DNA from: Halorubrum salinarum
GTDB lineage: Archaea > Halobacteriota > Halobacteria > Halobacteriales > Haloferacaceae
Assembly: GCF_013267195.1 (NCBI RefSeq)
Contig: NZ_CP053943.1
Location: 62,001 to 126,000 of the forward strand
Reading direction: 5' to 3'
DNA: 64,000 nucleotides
In this document: positions 16,214-57,977 of the stretch, in pieces
Layout of the letters: every line of letters starts with the position of its first letter
How positions within the stretch are numbered: the first letter of the stretch is position 1
Position numbers and translations under genes: made by a program
The notes under the pieces: generated by a model
What the model was told of the DNA's origin: nothing
The model's input: only the letters and a program-made list of their open reading frames with translations
Database searches by the model: none

Positions 16214-16375
16214 CTGTTCGCTATCTGTTGATAGCGTATTTGTTTCTTTGACCGCTACACAAGTGCCTTACTTGCGGATAGTTTGACTGTAGCCGAATAT
16301 GTTCGTAGGGGTCTCTCACTGACGGGGATTCCGCATTCCTGTTTTAATACGACAACAAAGTATTCCAAATGTACC

Positions 16376-17533
16376 ATGACTAGATCTTTCGGTGCCCCTG
16401 GAACCGGACTATCCCGGAGAGAATTTCTCGCTGCGACTGGGGTGACAGGCGTGTCGGCGTTGGCGGGCTGTTCATCCAAAACAATCGACGCGCCGACAGC
16501 GGCCACGGGCACCCCGAGTGAAGCACAGACGACATCGTCTGATCTTCCCTACACCAGTCCTCCGACGGTGATTAATGTCGACGAACAGGGAGGATCCGTG
16601 ACGATGGGGACGCAGCCGGCGCGACACGCGGTCCATCCACTTGATTCAATGGGCGGCCCGGTCGAGTTTCCCCGAGTCTGGGCATGGCAGGCCGACGACA
16701 ACGACCCGAGCGTTCCAGGCCCGATCCTTCGGACAACCGAAGGGAATGACATGGAAGTGACCCTCGACAATACGAATGGGCGTCGACCCCATACCATCCA
16801 CTTCCACGGGGTCACCAAAACATGGAAGAACGACGGTGTTCCGACATCGACCGGAATCCAAGTCCCGGCGGGTGAGAAACACACCTATGAAATTCCGGCG
16901 AACGTTCCGGGGACGCACCTGTACCACTGTCACTTCCAGACACACCGTCACATCGATATGGGAATGTACGGTATCTTTCGGGTCGACCCCGAAGGCTACG
17001 AGTCGGCGGACCGGGAGTACTTCATGACGATCAAAGACTGGGACTCACGGATCCCGGAAAAATGGGCCGGAGAGGCGGATTTTACCTACGATACGACCTC
17101 GCGGACTCCGGACGTCTTCACGGTTAACGGGAAGAGCGCACCCCGGACGCTCCACCCCGAACAAGGGTCACCGATCATTGTCGATCAGGGCGATCAGGTC
17201 CGTATTCACCTCGTCAACGGGGGATACATGTCACACCCGATACACATCCACAACCACCGCTTCCGGCGCGTCGAAAAGGACGGTGGGACGGTTCCGGAGG
17301 CCACCCGCCACGACATGGATGTCACGAATATTGCACCCGCTGAACGACACACAATCGAGTTCACGGCGGACGCAGACCCCGGGATCTACCTCATGCACTG
17401 CCACAAAGTCAACCACGTGATGAACGGGTCGTTCTACCCCGGTGGCATGCTTACGGGGGTTGTGTATCGCTCCGTCATGGATACGGACATCTTCAGCCAG
17501 CTCATGGAATACGCCGGCTACGAACCGAACTGA
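16376..17533 (+). CDS. Two-domain multicopper oxidase, Tat lipoprotein
   Basis: Predicted exported copper oxidase of about 385 residues. The ATG at 16376 places SRREFLAATGVTG and the lipobox LAGCS at the N-terminus, giving a Tat-exported lipoprotein; an earlier in-frame start at 16283 would bury the signal. Domain 1 has HTIHFHG (His139, 142, 144) and THLYHCHFQTHRHIDMGM (Cys185). Domain 2 has HPIHIHNHRF and YLMHCHKVNHVMNG (Cys342). Cysteine and nearby His and Met are present in both domains, so both may hold type 1 copper, unlike the oxidase at 2094. It may oxidise Cu(I) or organic substrates outside the cell. Not in an obvious operon. Confidence 0.88.
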   Translation: MTRSFGAPGTGLSRREFLAATGVTGVSALAGCSSKTIDAPTAATGTPSEAQTTSSDLPYTSPPTVINVDEQGGSVTMGTQPARHAVHPLDSMGGPVEFPRVWAWQADDNDPSVPGPILRTTEGNDMEVTLDNTNGRRPHTIHFHGVTKTWKNDGVPTSTGIQVPAGEKHTYEIPANVPGTHLYHCHFQTHRHIDMGMYGIFRVDPEGYESADREYFMTIKDWDSRIPEKWAGEADFTYDTTSRTPDVFTVNGKSAPRTLHPEQGSPIIVDQGDQVRIHLVNGGYMSHPIHIHNHRFRRVEKDGGTVPEATRHDMDVTNIAPAERHTIEFTADADPGIYLMHCHKVNHVMNGSFYPGGMLTGVVYRSVMDTDIFSQLMEYAGYEPN

Positions 17534-17687: not shown

Positions 17688-18890
17688 ATGACTCAGAAAG
17701 GCCGGAAAGAGAAAGCGGATGGTGACAGACCGAAATCTCGCAGAAGGTCGATCCGCCTACTCGTCCTGGTTTCTGTCGGGATCAGTCTCCTTTCGCTGGT
17801 CCCCACAGTTTCGGCCCACGGTGGCGCCGAGGCGTCGGGTTTCACACAGTCGCACGGGCTGGCGATCGCTGGTATCGGCGCCCTCGCAGTCGGTGCGCTC
17901 GTTCTCCTCAAGCGAAGGGAACGGATCTCACCGAGAGCCGCTCTGTACGGGATTGCGGTCGGCATCGGAGTTGCTGTCGCCGGTGCGATCCTCTTTGAGG
18001 GCCTGGCCCCGGATCCGACGTATCAGGCAGATTCGATGCCGTTCTCGCGGTCTTTGTATCAGCCGCTCGCGATCGGAACCGGCCTGTTAGTCGTGGTTGC
18101 GAGTTTTATCACCGGACTCGTTCGATGGACGACACGTCCTCGGTACATGGCTCTCGGAATACTGTTCGGCGGCTGGATACTGTATCCGTATCTGCTGCCC
18201 GGGTTCAGCGGCTACACCAATCCGATAGGATACGGGATCGTCCTCGCGACACCGCTGCTCGTCGGATACATTCTCTGGAAAGACGTTGGCGCGGCGCTGT
18301 CGACGATCCTTCGGGATTCGGTGGCGCGTCGGTTCGGATTCAGCGTCGGAGTCATGGTGAGCCTCTTCTTCATGGCGACGGCAGGATACCTGTCGTTCTT
18401 CAGTGAAGAGGGGGCTCCGCAAGAGACGACCATAGCTGTCCTGAACGTGCTGTATCAGATCGTGCGATGGCCCACCCTTGAGGTACTGCTTCCTGACGTC
18501 CCGTTTTTCATCGCGATCTCGCCTGGAGTGGTCATCGTACTGGGACTACTCGGCGTTCTCGTGGGATTGAACGCAGCCGCCGTCGCTCACTCGTGGCGTC
18601 TCGATCGGCAGGCGGGCGCCACACAGAGCACGGCCGGGACGGCGACGGTCGTCGGTGCGTGTACGTGTGGGTGTTGTGGGCCACTCGTCTCCCAAGTCGC
18701 CGTCATCGCGGCCGGCCCGACGATCGCGGCGCCGATATACTGGATCTTCGTCGATTCGGCGTCGCCACTGAGTTCAATATTCTTGTTAGGTAGCATCGCA
18801 CTGTTCACCGGCACGCTCGTGTATTCGATTGACTCCCCAGCACCTATCCGAAAAGATACGTCTGAGATCAGTACGGGAGTCACAGAATAG
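17688..18890 (+). CDS. Polytopic membrane protein with a Cys cluster
   Basis: A 400-residue protein with a basic cytosolic N-terminus, a first hydrophobic segment ending VSAHGG (signal peptide or anchor), and about nine further membrane helices. A conserved-looking CTCGCCGPL cluster (Cys325, 327, 329, 330) lies in the loop after TM7-8 and could bind metal. No family with known function is recognised. It sits 155 bases after the multicopper oxidase on the same strand and may be functionally tied to copper. The protein at 50444 also carries a membrane-embedded Cys motif (CPAC) in a similar setting, but wider similarity is not evident. Confidence 0.7.
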   Translation: MTQKGRKEKADGDRPKSRRRSIRLLVLVSVGISLLSLVPTVSAHGGAEASGFTQSHGLAIAGIGALAVGALVLLKRRERISPRAALYGIAVGIGVAVAGAILFEGLAPDPTYQADSMPFSRSLYQPLAIGTGLLVVVASFITGLVRWTTRPRYMALGILFGGWILYPYLLPGFSGYTNPIGYGIVLATPLLVGYILWKDVGAALSTILRDSVARRFGFSVGVMVSLFFMATAGYLSFFSEEGAPQETTIAVLNVLYQIVRWPTLEVLLPDVPFFIAISPGVVIVLGLLGVLVGLNAAAVAHSWRLDRQAGATQSTAGTATVVGACTCGCCGPLVSQVAVIAAGPTIAAPIYWIFVDSASPLSSIFLLGSIALFTGTLVYSIDSPAPIRKDTSEISTGVTE

Positions 18891-19391: not shown

Positions 19392-21890
19392 TCAAATTAG
19401 CTTCCGTTGAGTGTTTACCGCGATCAACCCACCGCCGGCAATGACCGCGGCCGCTGCCGTCAGCGGATTGAAGAACCCGACAGCCAACGCCGCGAGGGCG
19501 ATACCATTGTAGGAGAACGCGAGGAGGTTGTTCTGTTTCACGCGGCGGCGAGCCGCTCCCGCGAGGTCGAAGGCGGTTTCGACAGAGCGGATGTCGTTGT
19601 CGACGATGGCAATGTCGGCAGCGTCGGCGGCTAGTGCTGTACCGCCGCCCAGAGAGATACCGAGGTCGGCAGCGGCGAGGGCCGGGGCGTCGTTGGTACC
19701 GTCACCGACCATCGCGACCTCCCCATCAGATTTGAGCCGCCGGATCGTTGCCGTCTTCCCCTCCGGCGGAACCGTCGCAAAGACGTGCGTCACGGCGTCG
19801 TGTCGCTTGAAGAAGTCCGTTGCCTCCTCGTCGTCGCCGGTCAGGACGACGATCTCCGTGCCCCGTTCCCCAAGCCGAGAGACGGTGTCATCCCAGCCGT
19901 CTCGCGGCTCGTCCCCGACGACAATCAGCCCCTCTGCTGTCCCGTCACGACCGACGACCACCGGAAGCTGTCCGAATTCCTGGGCGTCGGCGATCCGAGA
20001 TCGGATGTCGTCGTCGACGGTCCACCCCTGTTCTGCGAACAGATCAAGGTTTCCGACGAGGTACGATGTGTTGCCGATCACGCCTTCGATACCGGACCGA
20101 TGGTTCGTGAACTCGCGTATCTGACCGACGCCTTCCGTTCCGGCCGCGTCATCTCCGGAGTCCGGCTGATCCGCTGTGCCGTCGCTACCGTCTTTCCCAG
20201 CGAATGCCGTCGTGATAGCGTTCGCGGCGGGATGTGACGCCCGTTGTTCGAGTGCGGCGACGGCGTCGAGCAACTCGGGAGGCGCGTCCGCTTTGATCAC
20301 TTCCATCTCTCCGGTTGTGAGTGTCCCCGTCTTATCGAAGACGACGATATCGACGTCGCGGAGCCGTTCAAAAACTGTTTCGTCGAAGATGATGATCCCG
20401 CGGCGGAGCGCACTGGAGAGGCTCTTCGCGACCGACAGGGGCGTCGCAAGGCCGAGAGCCCACGGTGAGCCGGCAAGGATGATCAACAGCGCGAGGAGGA
20501 GGGCATCTGGCAGGCCCATCCCGAATGCGAGTACACCGACGCCGCCAACCGCGACAGCGGCTCCGACGACGAGGAAGACGGCGTACGACGCGAGTTGGTC
20601 AGCATGGCGTTGGACGCCGTGAGTCGCGCTCTGTAGGTCCCAGACGGCAGTCGTTATCCGGTCGATACTACTCGTTAGGTCCGGGGCGACACGGACCAAC
20701 GCTGCCCCGTCCGTCACGATCGACCCCCCGATCACGTCGTCGCCGGCGCGTTTGAGCACCGGAAGTGACTCCCCTGTCACGATCGCTTCGTCGACGGTAC
20801 AACTGTCTTCAACCAGTTCACCGTCTATTGGAACACGTTCGCCCTGTCGGACGAGCACGACATCCCCTGTACTGAGATCCTCCACGCGAACTTCCTGAGT
20901 CTCCCCGTCCGAGTCGTACGTTCGTGTACTCTCGACCTGTGAAATGGTGAGTTCGGTGAGACGATCAAGTGCCCGCTGTTTGATCGACGATTCGTAGAAT
21001 ACCATCGCGGTAACCGCAGCCGTGACGATGATCGCGAGATCATAGAAAATGTCGTTTTGCCCGAGAATAACGGCAGCCGTACTGTACGCGTACGCGCTAA
21101 CGGCGGTGAGCGCAACCAACAGGTCGGTGTTCGGGCGTCGCATTTTGAGACTGATATACGCGCCACGCAACACTGGCAGACCGGTGAAGACGAGAATGAT
21201 ACCAGTCATCACGAAATACAGTCGGAGGAACACGAATGCCCCTTGACTGTTTAGCCGAAATGTGCCCTCAAATATTTCGAGCACTTGCCAGTCGAAAATC
21301 GACGCGAGCTGCGCTGGATAGAGGATCGCAACGTATGGAACCAACAGAAACGCACCGAAGAGGAACCCAACGGAGTATCGCATACCCAAGAGCTGGTCGT
21401 CTCGGCGCTTTCGAATCCCACCCATCTCCCGCGATCGACGTGTCGTGCCACCGGCCTCACCCACGTCTGATGAGGCATCTTCACGGAGATACGCGGTGTA
21501 ACCCAGCGAGCTCAGTGCCTCGCGCAACGATTCCTTCGAAACAATGGCTGGGTCGTGTTCAACTCGGATCGTCTCCGTGACGTAACTCGCCTCGGCACTA
21601 GCCACTCCCTCTTGTTTATCGGCAAGAGATTCAAGATACGCCTCACACGTCGCAGAATACATTCCGTCGATCCGGAGGAACGTTTGAGAACGATGTTGAT
21701 TGGGAGGACCCGTGTCGTCTCCCTCTTCGATCTTGCTCTCAGATGAGGTTTGCGTGGCATCGGGAGAATCGGAAGCTCCGAGCGTCGTATACACATCGTG
21801 GCAACCACTCGAACAGAACGATTGTTCACCGACAGTCTCAAATGTGGAAGAGTGAACCTCGCGACCACACAAGTAGCAGTTATCAGTCAT
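19392..21890 (-). CDS. P1B-type ATPase with non-canonical SPW motif in place of CPC
   Basis: Heavy-metal ATPase-like protein of 832 residues. The N-terminus has a TRASH/YHS-like cluster (CYLCGREV ... FCSSGC), then an HMA-like domain whose MxCxxC has become MYSATC (only Cys82 kept). The catalytic parts look intact: TGES, Asp519 in DKTGTLTTGE, ASHPAANA, and GDGTNDAPAL. The key TM6 metal-binding motif, CPC in most relatives, reads SPW (Ser475-Pro-Trp477, followed by ALGLATPLS). The last helix lacks the M-x-x-S-S motif of copper pumps. The ATPase machinery is thus conserved while the metal path is changed. It could carry a different ion, or pair with copper oxidase maturation as CcoI-like pumps do. 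Starts at 21890. Confidence 0.85.
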   Translation of the reverse strand: MTDNCYLCGREVHSSTFETVGEQSFCSSGCHDVYTTLGASDSPDATQTSSESKIEEGDDTGPPNQHRSQTFLRIDGMYSATCEAYLESLADKQEGVASAEASYVTETIRVEHDPAIVSKESLREALSSLGYTAYLREDASSDVGEAGGTTRRSREMGGIRKRRDDQLLGMRYSVGFLFGAFLLVPYVAILYPAQLASIFDWQVLEIFEGTFRLNSQGAFVFLRLYFVMTGIILVFTGLPVLRGAYISLKMRRPNTDLLVALTAVSAYAYSTAAVILGQNDIFYDLAIIVTAAVTAMVFYESSIKQRALDRLTELTISQVESTRTYDSDGETQEVRVEDLSTGDVVLVRQGERVPIDGELVEDSCTVDEAIVTGESLPVLKRAGDDVIGGSIVTDGAALVRVAPDLTSSIDRITTAVWDLQSATHGVQRHADQLASYAVFLVVGAAVAVGGVGVLAFGMGLPDALLLALLIILAGSPWALGLATPLSVAKSLSSALRRGIIIFDETVFERLRDVDIVVFDKTGTLTTGEMEVIKADAPPELLDAVAALEQRASHPAANAITTAFAGKDGSDGTADQPDSGDDAAGTEGVGQIREFTNHRSGIEGVIGNTSYLVGNLDLFAEQGWTVDDDIRSRIADAQEFGQLPVVVGRDGTAEGLIVVGDEPRDGWDDTVSRLGERGTEIVVLTGDDEEATDFFKRHDAVTHVFATVPPEGKTATIRRLKSDGEVAMVGDGTNDAPALAAADLGISLGGGTALAADAADIAIVDNDIRSVETAFDLAGAARRRVKQNNLLAFSYNGIALAALAVGFFNPLTAAAAVIAGGGLIAVNTQRKLI

Positions 21891-22787: not shown

Positions 22788-23579
22788 ATGATTGACACAG
22801 TTATCTTACAACGAGGGAGCGACTGGCGCGCGCAAGCGGAGGTTTTCGACGAGATCTTCTTCGTCTTCCTCGCGCTCGGTACCCTCGTCGGCACCATCGT
22901 CGTGGCGTACACGCTGTGGAACGTGTACAAGTACCGCGACGACGGGGGCGAACCGAAAGAAGACTTCGACGCGCCGACGGTCGGCGAGCTCCCGACGGGA
23001 CAGGGTGGTCCGAAAGCGAAGAAGCTCTTCCTCTCATTTGGACTGAGCGCGATCGTCGTTATCAGTCTCGTTGTGTACGCGTACGGGATCCTCCTCTACG
23101 TCGAGGAGGGGCCAGACACAGCAGACGAGAGCGACATCGAGATCCTCGTCGAGGGGTACCAGTTCGGCTGGGAGTACGAGTACCCGAACGGCCACACCAC
23201 GACGGGCGAGATGGTCGTGCCGGCCGATAACCGAGTCAACCTCGACGTGACCTCACGCGACGTGTGGCACAACTTCGGCTCGTCAGAGTTGCGGATAAAA
23301 TCCGACGCTATCCCCGGAGAGACCAGCGAGGTCTGGTTCTCCGTGAGTTCCGAAGAAGTCGAGGCACAGGGCGGCGAGGCAACGTACCGAGTCGAATGCT
23401 TCGAGCTCTGTGGGGCCGGTCACTCTGCGATGACTGGTCAAATCACGGTGCTCCCGCAAGACGAGTGGGAAGAATGGTATACAGGTACCCAAAGTGAAAA
23501 CACCTCCAATATCGATAGGACTTCCGCCGGAAATACTCCCAGCGTTGACAACGCGATCATTCGAGGTGCCCCTACATGA
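22788..23579 (+). CDS. coxB: Cytochrome c oxidase subunit II
   Basis: Membrane-anchored electron-entry subunit of a heme-copper oxidase, 263 residues. Two N-terminal membrane helices (about 22-45 and 83-105) are followed by the extracytoplasmic CuA cupredoxin domain. The CuA ligands are visible: VWHNFG (His161) and [12 protein letters not shown] (Cys204, Cys208, His212, Met215). A conserved aromatic patch [10 protein letters not shown] precedes them. The stop codon overlaps the start of the next gene (ATGA at 23576-23579), so the two are translationally linked. In haloarchaea the electron donor may be halocyanin, and several halocyanin genes occur in this window. Confidence 0.95.
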
Positions 23580-26074
23580 GCGAACTCCCGCCCACGACTT
23601 CGGTCAAACGATGGCTCGTCACGACTAACCACAAGGACATCGGGATCCTCTACACGATCACTGCCCTGTTCTTCCTACTATTCGGCGGTGTCCTTGCTTT
23701 ACTGATCCGTGTCCAGCTCTGGGAACCAACGAATCAGATCCTGTCCGGGCTGGCGTACAACGAGGCCGTCACTGCCCACGGACTGATAATGGTGTTCTGG
23801 TTCCTCTCCCCGTTTGCCTTCGGCTTTGCAAACTACTTCGTGCCGCTCCAGATCGGTGCCGACGACCTTGCGTTCCCACGGCTTAACGCACTCTCCTACT
23901 GGATGTACCTGTTCTCAGGCGTATTATTATCAATCAGCTTCTTCCAAGGCGGCACGCTGAGCGCTGGCTGGACGATATACGCTCCGCTCAACATACCCGC
24001 GTACACACCGAGTATCGGCTCGACGGGTGCGATACTAGCACTCGCGATGTTCACCATCGGAGTCACCGCCTCGTCGATAAATTTCCTCGTGTCTATTCAT
24101 CACTCGCGTGCCGAAGGGATGGGAATCATGGACATGCCGATGTTCACATGGTCCATCCTCGCGACCGTGTGGATGATGCTGTTCGCATTCGCCGCATTAC
24201 TCGCTGCGGGACTAATTCTTGCATCCGACCGTGTACTAGGCTCGGTGTACTTTTCCGCAACAGAGGGCGGCTCCCTTCTGTGGGGCCACCTATTCTGGTT
24301 CTTCGGCCATCCGGAGGTGTACATCGTCTTCTTCCCGGCGCTCGGTGCAATGTTGGAGCTTTTCCAGACATTCTCTGGGCGTCGCCTCGTCGGGCGAAAG
24401 TGGGTGATAATCGCCATCTGTCTTGTCTCCGTCCAATCGTTCCTTGTGTGGATGCACCATATGTTCCTGACGACGATCAATTTGGAGATCAAGACGCTAA
24501 TGATGGCAACCACCATCGGTATTTCCTTACCCTTTGACCTGATCGTGTTCTCGCTGATCTACACGCTCATCAAGGGACGAATCCAGTTCACGACACCGTT
24601 CCTCTTCGCGTTCGGGGCGCTGCTATTGTTCATCCTCGGCGGCATCACCGGGGTGTTCCTCGGCGCTATCGTCCTCGACTACGAGTTCCGTGGCACCTAC
24701 TGGGTGGTCGCGCACTTCCACTACGTGATGTTCGGGGGGGCGACAGCGCTGATCGGCGCTGCGTACTACTGGTTCCCGAAAATAACTGGGAAGATGTACG
24801 ATGAACTCCTCGGGAAGATCCATTTCATACTGTTCTTCATCGGGTTCAACGCCGTCTATTTCTCGATGTTCCTCGGGTGGGAGACCCCCCGGCGTGTCTT
24901 CGAATACAACCCCGAACTCCAAATTTACCACCAATTCGGGACTATCGGCGCGTTCGTACTCGGATTCTCCTTCTTCATCATGTTCTATAACTTCGCGAAG
25001 TCGTATGTCTCCGGCGAGCCTGCCGGCGACAACCCATGGGACTACTCGCGAACTGCTGAGTGGGCCATCTCTTCACCCCCGCCGCTCGAGAACTGGCCAA
25101 ACCGGCCGTCCTACGCGTCCGGTAAGCTTGAATTCGTGAAAGATTATGTGCCAGACGGAGGTCCGGCTGTCAAGACCGACGCCAATGGGAACGGAACGAC
25201 TGACGGTGGTGACACCCACTCCGAACACATCAAAAAATATCCGTACTGGGACAAGCACCCAAGCCACGCAAGTATCTGGCCGCTGGCCCTATCGCTGGCA
25301 GTCGGTGTATTGTTCCTCGGACTCACCGGGTTCCGCGATAACGTTGTCTTCGAGCTGGGCGAGTCGCTCACATCGACTGGCGTGACAATCTCGAATCCAG
25401 TATACCCGATACTCATAGTTATCGGTCTGGTCGGACTCATTTGGACCGGGGTGAAGTGGGGCCTTGAGGACTTCTATGCCCCACCGACAGAGTTCGCCGA
25501 GCGGTGGCCGTTCGACGGCATCGAAAAAGTCAAGCTGGGGATGTGGTTCTTCATCGCGTCAGACGTGATCGTCTTTGGCGCGTTCCTCTCTGCAGCCATC
25601 TTCGTCCGGTACAACGCCGGCTGGATGACATGGGAGCCACTGGCCGAACCACTACCGGGGCTGATCAACACGTTCGTACTCCTCACCTCGTCATTTACCG
25701 TGATCTTGGCGCTGGTCGCCGCTCGTCGAAAGAATCGGCAGGGCCTGCTCGCGTCACTCGGTACAACGATAGTGCTTGGATTCACATTCTTGGGTATCAA
25801 GCTCTGGGAGTGGAACAAAGAGATCTTCGAACGAGGCGTGACAATTTCGGCGAATGCCCATGGTGACCCTATTCAAGCATCGATCTACTACGTCACGACC
25901 GGCCTCCACGGGATCCACGTAGTTATTGGCCTTGTGATCGCCATCTTCCTGTTCATCAGGGCCTACCAAGGCCACTACCTCGACGACGAGCGGCCAATCG
26001 AGTACTTTGGCCTCTACTGGCACTTCGTCGACATCGTCTGGGTGTTCATCTTCCCGCTGTTCTACCTCTTCTGA
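23576..26074 (+). CDS. coxAC: Cytochrome c oxidase subunits I and III, fused
   Basis: Terminal oxidase catalytic subunit fused to subunit III, 832 residues. The subunit I part (about 1-490) has the low-spin heme His in AVTAHGLIM, the copper-B site with cross-linked Tyr in GHPEVYI, the two His in WMHHMF, and [10 protein letters not shown] for heme ligands. GADDLAFPR keeps the D-channel Asp, pointing to a type A oxidase. After a linker of about 80 residues and two further helices, the subunit III part starts near residue 640 ([19 protein letters not shown]) and ends with [19 protein letters not shown]. Fusion of CoxA and CoxC is common in archaea. No assembly gene is adjacent. Confidence 0.95.
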
Positions 26075-56057: not shown

Positions 56058-57977
56058 ATGAACAAACAATCGATCACGCAGTACTACCGGAACCACCGGA
56101 AGGCCATCGTCACGGCGACAAGCGGCCTGCTGTACGGCGGTGGCTGGAGTCTCGGCTACCTCACGAGTTTCGAGATGGCAAGCGCCGCCATCCTCGTCCT
56201 CGCGACGGTCGTGGGTGGCTACGACATCGCCAAGACCGCTTACCACGAGGTCACCAACCGGACGCTCGGCATCAAGACGCTGGTGACGCTGGCTGCAATC
56301 GGCGCCATCGTCATCGGCGAGTACTGGGAAGCCGCCGCCGTCGTCTTCCTGTTCAGCCTCGGCAGCTACCTCGAGGGCCGCACGATGCGGAAGACTCGGA
56401 CGGCCCTCCAGGAGCTGCTGGAGATGACGCCCGACACGGCGACCGTCCGTCGCGACGGGACACTCCAAAAGGTCTCCGCCCGCGATGTCGAAGAGGGCGA
56501 AGTCGTCGTCGTAAAGCCGGGCGGGAAGATCCCGGTCGACGGAACCGTCGTCGACGGCGAGAGCGCAGTCAACCAGGCGCCGGTCACCGGCGAGAGCGCG
56601 CCCGTCCACAAGGCCGACAGCGACGAGGTGTACGCCGGGACGGTCAACCAGGAAGGCGCACTGGAGGTCCGGACGACGGGTGCGGGCTCGGATACGACGC
56701 TCGAGCGCATCATCCGCCGCGTCGAGGAGGCCCAGGAGGCCCAGTCGCCCACGGAGAGTCTCATCGACCGGTTCGCGAAGTACTACACCCCAGCCGTCAT
56801 CGTGCTCGCAATCGGCGCGTACGCAGTCACGCAGAACGCGATCCTGTCGCTCACCTTGCTGGTCATCGGCTGTCCGGGCGCGCTGGTCATCGGACCGCCG
56901 GTCAGTATCGTCTCGGCCATCGGGAACGCCGCCCGGTCGGGCGTCCTGATGAAAGGTGGCGAACACCTCGAACGTGCCGGCAAGATCGACCTCGTTGCCT
57001 TCGACAAGACCGGCACCCTCACGAAAGGTGAGACCACCGTCGCCGACGTCGAGGGGTTCGGCGTCGACGACGACGAGGTAATCTCGCTCGCGGCGACTGC
57101 CGAGAAGAAAAGTGAACACCACCTCGCCGACGCCATCGTCGACGCAGCACGCGATCGTCCGACCGCCGCAACCGATGGCGGAACTGCGATCGCCCATTCC
57201 GATGCCGCGAGCGCCGAACACCGGTCGGTTCCGGATCCGGATGACTTCGACGTGGTCGCCGGCAAGGGTGTCGTCGCCCATACGGACGGCCACGAGGTCG
57301 TCGTTGGGAACCGGGCGCTGCTCGACGACCGCAGCATCGACATCCCGGATCACATCGCCGAGTACGTCCGTGGCCGCGAGGAACGCGGTGAGACGGTCGT
57401 CCACGTCGTGCGAGACGGCAGCATCATCGGCGTGATCGCGATGCGCGACGAACTTCGAGAGGCCGCTCCTGGCGTCGTAGCGGCGCTTCAAGATGCCGGC
57501 ATCGAGACGGTGATGCTCACCGGCGACAACGAGCGGACGGCAAGTGCCGTCGCAGGGGAGGTGGGCATCGACGAGTACCGCGCCGAACTCCTTCCCGAGG
57601 ACAAACAGACCGTCATCGAAGAATACCAGGCCGACGGCCACGTCGTTGCGATGGTCGGCGATGGCATCAACGACGCGCCGTCGCTGGCGACCGCCGACGT
57701 CGGTATCGCGATGGGCGCTGCCGGCACAGACACCGCCATCGAGACGGCGGACATGGCGCTGATGGCCGACGACCTGGAACGCATCCCGTACGCGGTCGCA
57801 CTCAGTAAGGCGACGCGCTGGAACGTCCTCGAGAACGTCGGGCTCGCGGTGCTGACCGTGACCGTCCTGCTCGCTGGCGTGCTCACCAGTTACGTCACGC
57901 TCGCCGCCGGGATGCTCGTCCACGAAGCCAGCGTTCTCCTCGTCATCCTCAACGGGATGCGACTGCTCCGACACTAA
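56058..57977 (+). CDS. P1B-like ATPase with CPG motif, no N-terminal metal-binding domain
   Basis: A 639-residue heavy-metal ATPase. It starts directly with the membrane core. The TM6 motif is CPG (Cys272-Pro-Gly274, then ALVIGPPVS) rather than CPC, an atypical but recurring variant. Catalytic parts are intact: TGES, Asp316 in [18 protein letters not shown] at the HP locus and GDGINDAPSLA. The final helix has HEASVLLVILNGMRL. The motif set indicates a non-copper ion, perhaps Zn, Co or another divalent metal. It is paired with the HMA protein upstream and an FmdE-like protein downstream. Confidence 0.88.
   Translation: MNKQSITQYYRNHRKAIVTATSGLLYGGGWSLGYLTSFEMASAAILVLATVVGGYDIAKTAYHEVTNRTLGIKTLVTLAAIGAIVIGEYWEAAAVVFLFSLGSYLEGRTMRKTRTALQELLEMTPDTATVRRDGTLQKVSARDVEEGEVVVVKPGGKIPVDGTVVDGESAVNQAPVTGESAPVHKADSDEVYAGTVNQEGALEVRTTGAGSDTTLERIIRRVEEAQEAQSPTESLIDRFAKYYTPAVIVLAIGAYAVTQNAILSLTLLVIGCPGALVIGPPVSIVSAIGNAARSGVLMKGGEHLERAGKIDLVAFDKTGTLTKGETTVADVEGFGVDDDEVISLAATAEKKSEHHLADAIVDAARDRPTAATDGGTAIAHSDAASAEHRSVPDPDDFDVVAGKGVVAHTDGHEVVVGNRALLDDRSIDIPDHIAEYVRGREERGETVVHVVRDGSIIGVIAMRDELREAAPGVVAALQDAGIETVMLTGDNERTASAVAGEVGIDEYRAELLPEDKQTVIEEYQADGHVVAMVGDGINDAPSLATADVGIAMGAAGTDTAIETADMALMADDLERIPYAVALSKATRWNVLENVGLAVLTVTVLLAGVLTSYVTLAAGMLVHEASVLLVILNGMRLLRH

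Follow-up and report, generated by a model that had tools for sequence, protein, structure and literature searches.

A maintained haloarchaeal clade of P1B-type ATPases that keeps its phosphorylation engine and, judging from its residues, has lost the classical Cu(I) path

The window analysed here, a stretch of 64,000 nucleotides from Halorubrum salinarum covering positions 62001-126000 of a 155-kb contig, encodes a P1B-type ATPase in which SPW stands where the CPC motif of the membrane helix M4 is expected (Table 1). The sequence-only reading of this DNA had described the motif as Ser475-Pro476-Trp477 with neither CPC cysteine present, together with an HMA motif reduced to one cysteine and intact phosphorylation, TGES, HP and GDGxND motifs, and the translated gene bears out all of these, including the numbering of SPW. 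Pfam assigned HMA, E1-E2 ATPase and HAD domains to the protein, and an AlphaFold2 model (49 rows, mean pLDDT 73) showed A, P and N domains, the HMA domain and eight helices in a P1B fold, with M4 broken at Pro476 and with ATP7B (7si6) and LpCopA (4bbj) as the best fold matches in the PDB. Trp477 may fill a gap left on M6. The N-terminal Cys cluster reads C5xxC8...C26SSGC30 and keeps four cysteines (5, 8, 26 and 30); its best ATPase-related Pfam match, PF12156 (putative metal-binding domain of cation-transport ATPases), stayed below the gathering threshold (18.9 bits against 27), as it did in the CPC paralogs. This cluster had been taken for an N-terminal addition of YHS/TRASH type, but the two CPC paralogs in this genome carry it as well, as does every one of the 41 CPC relatives examined, and it is therefore inherited rather than added.

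Table 1. Features of the SPW ATPase gene and its neighbours (positions are those of the window).
Feature	Position	Strand	Remarks
xPW-type P1B ATPase gene, SPW member	19392..21890	-	832 aa, ATG start, no internal stops
N-terminal Cys cluster, C5-x2-C8 ... C26-x3-C30	21801..21878	-	weak PF12156 match; also in CPC paralogs
HMA domain, residues 68-135	21486..21689	-	PF00403, E 5e-10
GMYSATC, residues 76-82	21645..21665	-	Ser79 for first Cys of HMA CxxC; Cys82 in 50/50
Thr255 in place of entry-site Met (AfCopA M158)	21126..21128	-	Met in 41/41 CPC paralogs; PMC9433437
Cys364, new actuator-domain Cys (CTVDEAIVTGES)	20799..20801	-	50/50 xPW; Ala/Gly/Val in CPC
TGES dephosphorylation loop, residues 372-375	20766..20777	-	Glu374 in 50/50
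SPW, residues 475-477, M4, where CPC is expected	20460..20468	-	
DKTGT phosphorylation site, residues 519-523	20322..20336	-	Asp519 in 50/50
HP of nucleotide-binding domain, residues 553-554	20229..20234	-	50/50
GDGTND, residues 729-734	19689..19706	-	
M5 Tyr794-Asn795 (YN motif), kept	19506..19511	-	
M6 residues 816-820, VIAGG	19431..19445	-	MxxSS in CPC paralogs
coxB and fused coxA-coxC (cytochrome c oxidase)	22788..26074	+	divergent, upstream of the SPW ATPase gene
400-aa membrane protein with CTCGCCGP motif	17688..18890	+	adjoins most plasmid xPW loci

The protein passed the general heavy-metal ATPase model TIGR01525 (391.3 bits, curated cut-off 346.25) and fell short of the copper ATPase model TIGR01511 (333.9 against 397), a cut-off that the genome's own two CPC paralogs exceed with 433.4 and 430.8 bits. 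These paralogs (50% and 45% identity) are built on the same plan, and in them both CPC and the CxxC are intact. The general P1B features are all present (DKTGT, TGES, HP, GDGxND and eight membrane helices with MA/MB), and among the marks of subclass P1B-1 it retains YN in TM7 (M5) and lacks CPC in TM6 (M4), MxxSS in TM8 (M6) and the HMA CxxC. The marks of P1B-4 are likewise absent, TM6 having SPW rather than SPC and TM8 reading AAAAVIAGGGLIAVN rather than a HEGGT-type sequence. As for the signs of a pseudogene, the frame is unbroken and selection is not relaxed across the whole gene.

Scanning 391 Halobacteria genomes for the motif pattern and then reading the frames revealed SPW in 18 genomes and CPW in 14, both lower bounds; with plasmid records added and 84,980 species genomes scanned, the set grew to 50 distinct proteins with SPW or CPW (xPW; 36 have Ser475 and 14 have Cys475) and 41 CPC proteins. 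In a maximum-likelihood tree all 50 haloarchaeal xPW proteins fell into one clade with a long stem (SH-aLRT 100), nested, in this tree computed without bacterial CcoI, among haloarchaeal CcoI/FixI-like CPC copper ATPases. It joins two CPC rows at SH-aLRT 87, an exact sister that is unsure given the quick tree search and long-branch outgroups. The suggestion that SPW might define a clade thus holds for xPW as a whole, while the Ser and Cys states do not separate into two clean clades. Trp477 is invariant across the 50 distinct members, so the motif is no product of chance, and a sequencing error is ruled out too; the alternative that had been held against the sequence-only reading, an isolated SPW accompanied by decay or misread bases, gave way to a broad family under purifying selection. 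Most CPW members (11/14) retain the HMA CxxC. Every SPW genome sampled also encodes a CcoI-type CPC paralog, and none was found at E 1e-100 in four CPW genomes. Two copies depart from the common form: one (locus L188, genome G384) has CLW, with Leu for the otherwise invariant motif Pro, and an SPW copy at L040 (8493-10987, + strand) is frameshifted near its C-terminus, reading GDGTN and then out of frame (752 aa plus an out-of-frame tail), through either an assembly error or a real lesion.

Residues invariant in the 41 CPC paralogs, namely Met180, Met255, Cys475, Cys477, Met816, Ser819 and Ser820, have changed in the xPW proteins: Met180 to Ala, Thr or Ser; Met255 to Thr or Ala; position 475 to Ser or Cys; Cys477 to Trp; Met816 to Val or Ala; and Ser819 and Ser820 to mixed residues. 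Met occurs at position 816 in 0/50 xPW proteins, and the entry Met at 255 is kept by none of the 50. In a motif-anchored correspondence, which leaves Met180 without an AfCopA counterpart, residues 255, 475, 477, 816, 819 and 820 equate to AfCopA M158, C380, C382, M711, S714 and S715, which make up the entry site and the high-affinity site (PMC9433437). Replacing the M4-M6 ligands of AfCopA by Ala abolishes function, and Cu binding suffers when the CPC cysteines are mutated (PMC9433437). On the evidence of the aligned residues, the known Cu(I) ligands of the membrane relay have been lost as a set in xPW. Other residues are kept, namely Glu300 and Asp431 (equivalents of E205 and D336), Tyr794 and Asn795, and two invariant residues have been gained (50/50 each), Trp477 and Cys364, the latter in the actuator domain just ahead of TGES. 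None of the gains in the membrane part introduced a charged residue or a His, and the M6 sites 816-821 vary freely. The near-complete conservation of Trp477, Pro476, Tyr794, Asn795 and Glu300 suggests that some membrane chemistry is still selected.

The catalytic engine, by comparison, is essentially fixed. Glu374, Asp519, Lys520, Thr521, His553, Pro554, Asp686, Lys712, Asp730 and Asn733 are present in 50/50 xPW proteins, and Asp734 in 49, with a single Asp734Glu. Pairwise dN/dS values are 0.09-0.33 in xPW, similar to or somewhat higher than those of the CPC paralogs (0.16-0.17), and together with the invariant engine they rule out decay; purifying selection across the clade likewise excludes sequencing error. 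The earlier picture of a conserved engine with an altered ion site is supported. We then compared conservation per site on sets thinned at 85% identity. The soluble domains were equally conserved in xPW and CPC proteins (mean site difference -0.001, 394 sites) and MA/MB/M2 were nearly unaltered (-0.05), whereas M1/M3-M6 were relaxed in xPW, with mean pairwise identity per site lower by 0.25 (145 sites; Mann-Whitney p 2e-21, indicative since sites are not independent). The relaxation appeared in every bin of soluble identity filled by both groups: at 65-70% soluble identity, for example, the ion helices were 53% identical in xPW against 78% in CPC. Moreover, the TM/soluble ratio of pN in close pairs was 1.30 in xPW and 0.58 in CPC. 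No membrane part of CPC pumps is under tighter constraint than the ion helices, and no membrane part of xPW under looser. Such a pattern is to be expected of a machine whose purpose no longer lies in its ion path, and it would likewise suit a pocket whose substrate, bulky or hydrophobic, is less exactly defined.

The surroundings of the gene differ between plasmids and chromosomes. Plasmid xPW copies lie in copper/cytochrome-oxidase islands, as in this window and several other plasmid islands, and the surroundings of annotated relatives add COX15/CtaA, DsbA/DsbB-like proteins, SCO, TlpA, CcdA and plastocyanin. Chromosomal copies of the Natrialbaceae (Natrinema and others) have no copper-island or heme-copper oxidase context. 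In five loci of this family (L116, L126, L129, L086 and L087) a MATE efflux gene lies near the xPW ATPase. The CPC paralogs of the present genome neighbour a ba3-like oxidase with heme A/O synthesis genes, and a DsbD-like gene with halocyanin, a context as expected for CopA2-type pumps.

Several neighbours deserve mention in their own right. A CPH-type copper ATPase is encoded near the SPW ATPase, and between 5377 and 57977 of the window, about 53 kb, lie five or more P1B ATPases that between them show five different TM6 contexts (CPC of Zn type, SPW, CPH, CPC of CopA and CPG). The CPG protein (56058-57977, + strand) is P1B-like, with IGCPGALVIGPP in TM6, VHEASVLLVILN in TM8 and no CPC; a P1B ATPase beside another xPW locus (L047, 1883-4168, - strand) has YPC in TM6 (LGYPCALGMATP). 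At 16283-17533 (+) a short multicopper oxidase-like protein, conserved in the same islands, also matches a copper nitrite reductase model far below cut-off. The mature CTCGCCGP protein may begin at a His (SAHGG), and its Pfam match is sub-threshold. Its family occurs in 87/391 Halobacteria genomes, often without an xPW gene in the vicinity, and does not adjoin the chromosomal xPW copies.

Taken together, the sequences describe a maintained clade of single origin from which the classical Cu(I) path has been removed while the engine was kept, and xPW proteins are maintained ATPases that almost certainly do not act as classical Cu(I) pumps. That this state is common to no fewer than 50 distinct copies argues for a maintained machine rather than a broken gene. 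We tentatively favour the reading that xPW is a neofunctionalised CcoI/FixI (CopA2-type, P1B-1) paralog whose Cu-blind cycle serves regulation or assembly. The sequences show that the engine of phosphorylation and dephosphorylation has been kept, along with the N-terminal Cys cluster, a single HMA cysteine and the MA/MB/M2 platform; the proteins are predicted to hydrolyse ATP, and their E1/E2 cycle would still be ATP-driven. The classical M4-M6 path would carry no thiophilic metal, with Trp477 packing into the space left by small M6 residues and closing the old Cu site. Cytosolic Cys/HMA input and the chaperone-docking platform could then gate an ATP-driven conformational change, whose targets, in the plasmid islands at least, may be copper or cytochrome-oxidase maturation proteins. 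That such an uncoupled cycle is feasible is suggested by R. capsulatus CcoI, whose C417A/C419A variant retains about 70% of ATPase activity and has lost Cu transport (PMC8475189). We are more doubtful of the stronger version, in which ion transport has been given up altogether and the phosphorylation cycle works as a conformational switch or as a partner's motor behind a Trp-sealed site. Nor can xPW always regulate a CcoI-type CPC paralog, given the four CPW genomes that show none at E 1e-100. Against a regulatory or assembly role stand also the membrane residues that remain under selection (Trp477, Pro476, Tyr794, Asn795 and Glu300), the relaxed helices, which would also suit a bulky or hydrophobic cargo, and a gene context that is not constant, the chromosomal Natrialbaceae copies lying outside copper islands.

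The sequence-only reading had proposed a different cargo or a regulatory role. Relaxation of M1/M3-M6 relative to the soluble engine favours its second half, an uncoupled or regulatory machine, and speaks against specificity for a new ion; we thus favour an ATP-driven machine for regulation or assembly and place a switch of cargo second. Such a switch, to a non-thiophilic substrate that might be an organic or hydrophobic cation (bound through cation-pi contacts with Trp477 and Tyr794) or a small neutral or lipid-like molecule, strikes us as somewhat unlikely. It would account for a complete engine, including TGES, and a YN motif kept across the clade, for the invariant Trp477 and the gain of Thr255 and Ser486, for relaxed helices resembling a less specific pocket, and for the MATE efflux genes adjoining xPW in the five Natrialbaceae loci, yet the membrane part acquired no charged or His residue and the free variation of M6 sites 816-821 is unlike a specific site.

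Less probable again is that xPW remains a Cu(I)/Ag(I) pump of residual function in which the coordination has changed, by Cys475 and Trp477 in CPW and weakened in SPW. Trp-assisted coordination of Cu(I)/Ag(I) has a model in the cation-pi interaction of CusF. The Cys475 of CPW members, their mostly retained HMA CxxC and the cox, SCO, plastocyanin and multicopper oxidase genes around plasmid copies are consistent with this idea, but Cys475 is missing in 36/50 proteins and the M6 and entry Met in all, and the loss of AfCopA activity on Ala substitution of its M4-M6 ligands (PMC9433437) weighs against it. We consider it improbable that xPW is an ATP engine for a partner membrane protein, in a KdpB-like division of labour. 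The candidate would be the CTCGCCGP neighbour, which stands tail-to-tail to the SPW or CPW gene in most plasmid loci and diverges along with it; this synteny led us to consider an obligate partnership, which is weakened by the family's occurrence without xPW and its absence from chromosomal xPW loci, and the AlphaFold model of the neighbour is poor (pLDDT 46). Very little speaks for a pump decaying towards a pseudogene and carried along by plasmid islands: the relaxed ion helices, the frameshifted copy and the CLW copy would agree with it, but it is largely refuted by a clade of nearly all full-length proteins with a low dN/dS and an engine that hardly varies, in which the new residues Trp477 and Cys364 are invariant and chromosomal copies are conserved too.

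What defines a P1B subclass is the set of residues at the membrane ion site. In at least 50 xPW proteins those residues are gone and the engine is invariant, selection having shifted away from the ion helices. The clade offers a natural experiment on whether a P-type ATPase can run its cycle apart from ion transport, with the CPW members completing a graded series of CPC, CPW and SPW. Its proteins are annotated as 'cation/heavy-metal translocating P-type ATPase', and genes of this kind should not be named copper or metal resistance pumps. We found no description of the SPW/CPW motif in the literature searched, which did not extend to subscription journals, the main P1B classification papers among them, and reviews listing P1B-1 to P1B-7 contain no such class.

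Among known systems, KdpB (P1A) is a P-type engine that works with the ion path of another subunit; no KdpA-like partner emerged here for xPW. Single-residue swaps at the CPx site are familiar from P1B-4, with SPC in TM6, and P1B-5, with TPC. Further TM6 variants are CPH, of P1B-3, and CPD (PMC5552934), but all of these keep at least one motif Cys and their own M6 signatures, whereas the SPW motif has no Cys. AfCopA, LpCopA and ATP7B share fold and catalytic motifs with xPW, although SPW members retain no sulfur ligand of the Cu(I) path. A precedent for a P1B ATPase with no typical membrane metal motif, likened here by its published description, is R. capsulatus Rcc01042, whose absence leaves Cu resistance and cbb3 oxidase unaffected (PMC7558416). 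The closest system is CcoI/FixI/CtpA (CopA2-type, P1B-1; P1B-1c of PMC5552934): xPW proteins differ from it in [SC]PW, the missing MxxSS and entry Met, an HMA domain with mostly one Cys and the new actuator Cys, but they nest in its haloarchaeal branch and share with it the N-terminal Cys cluster, the HMA domain, the eight-helix P1B architecture and, in plasmid islands, nearby cytochrome oxidase genes.
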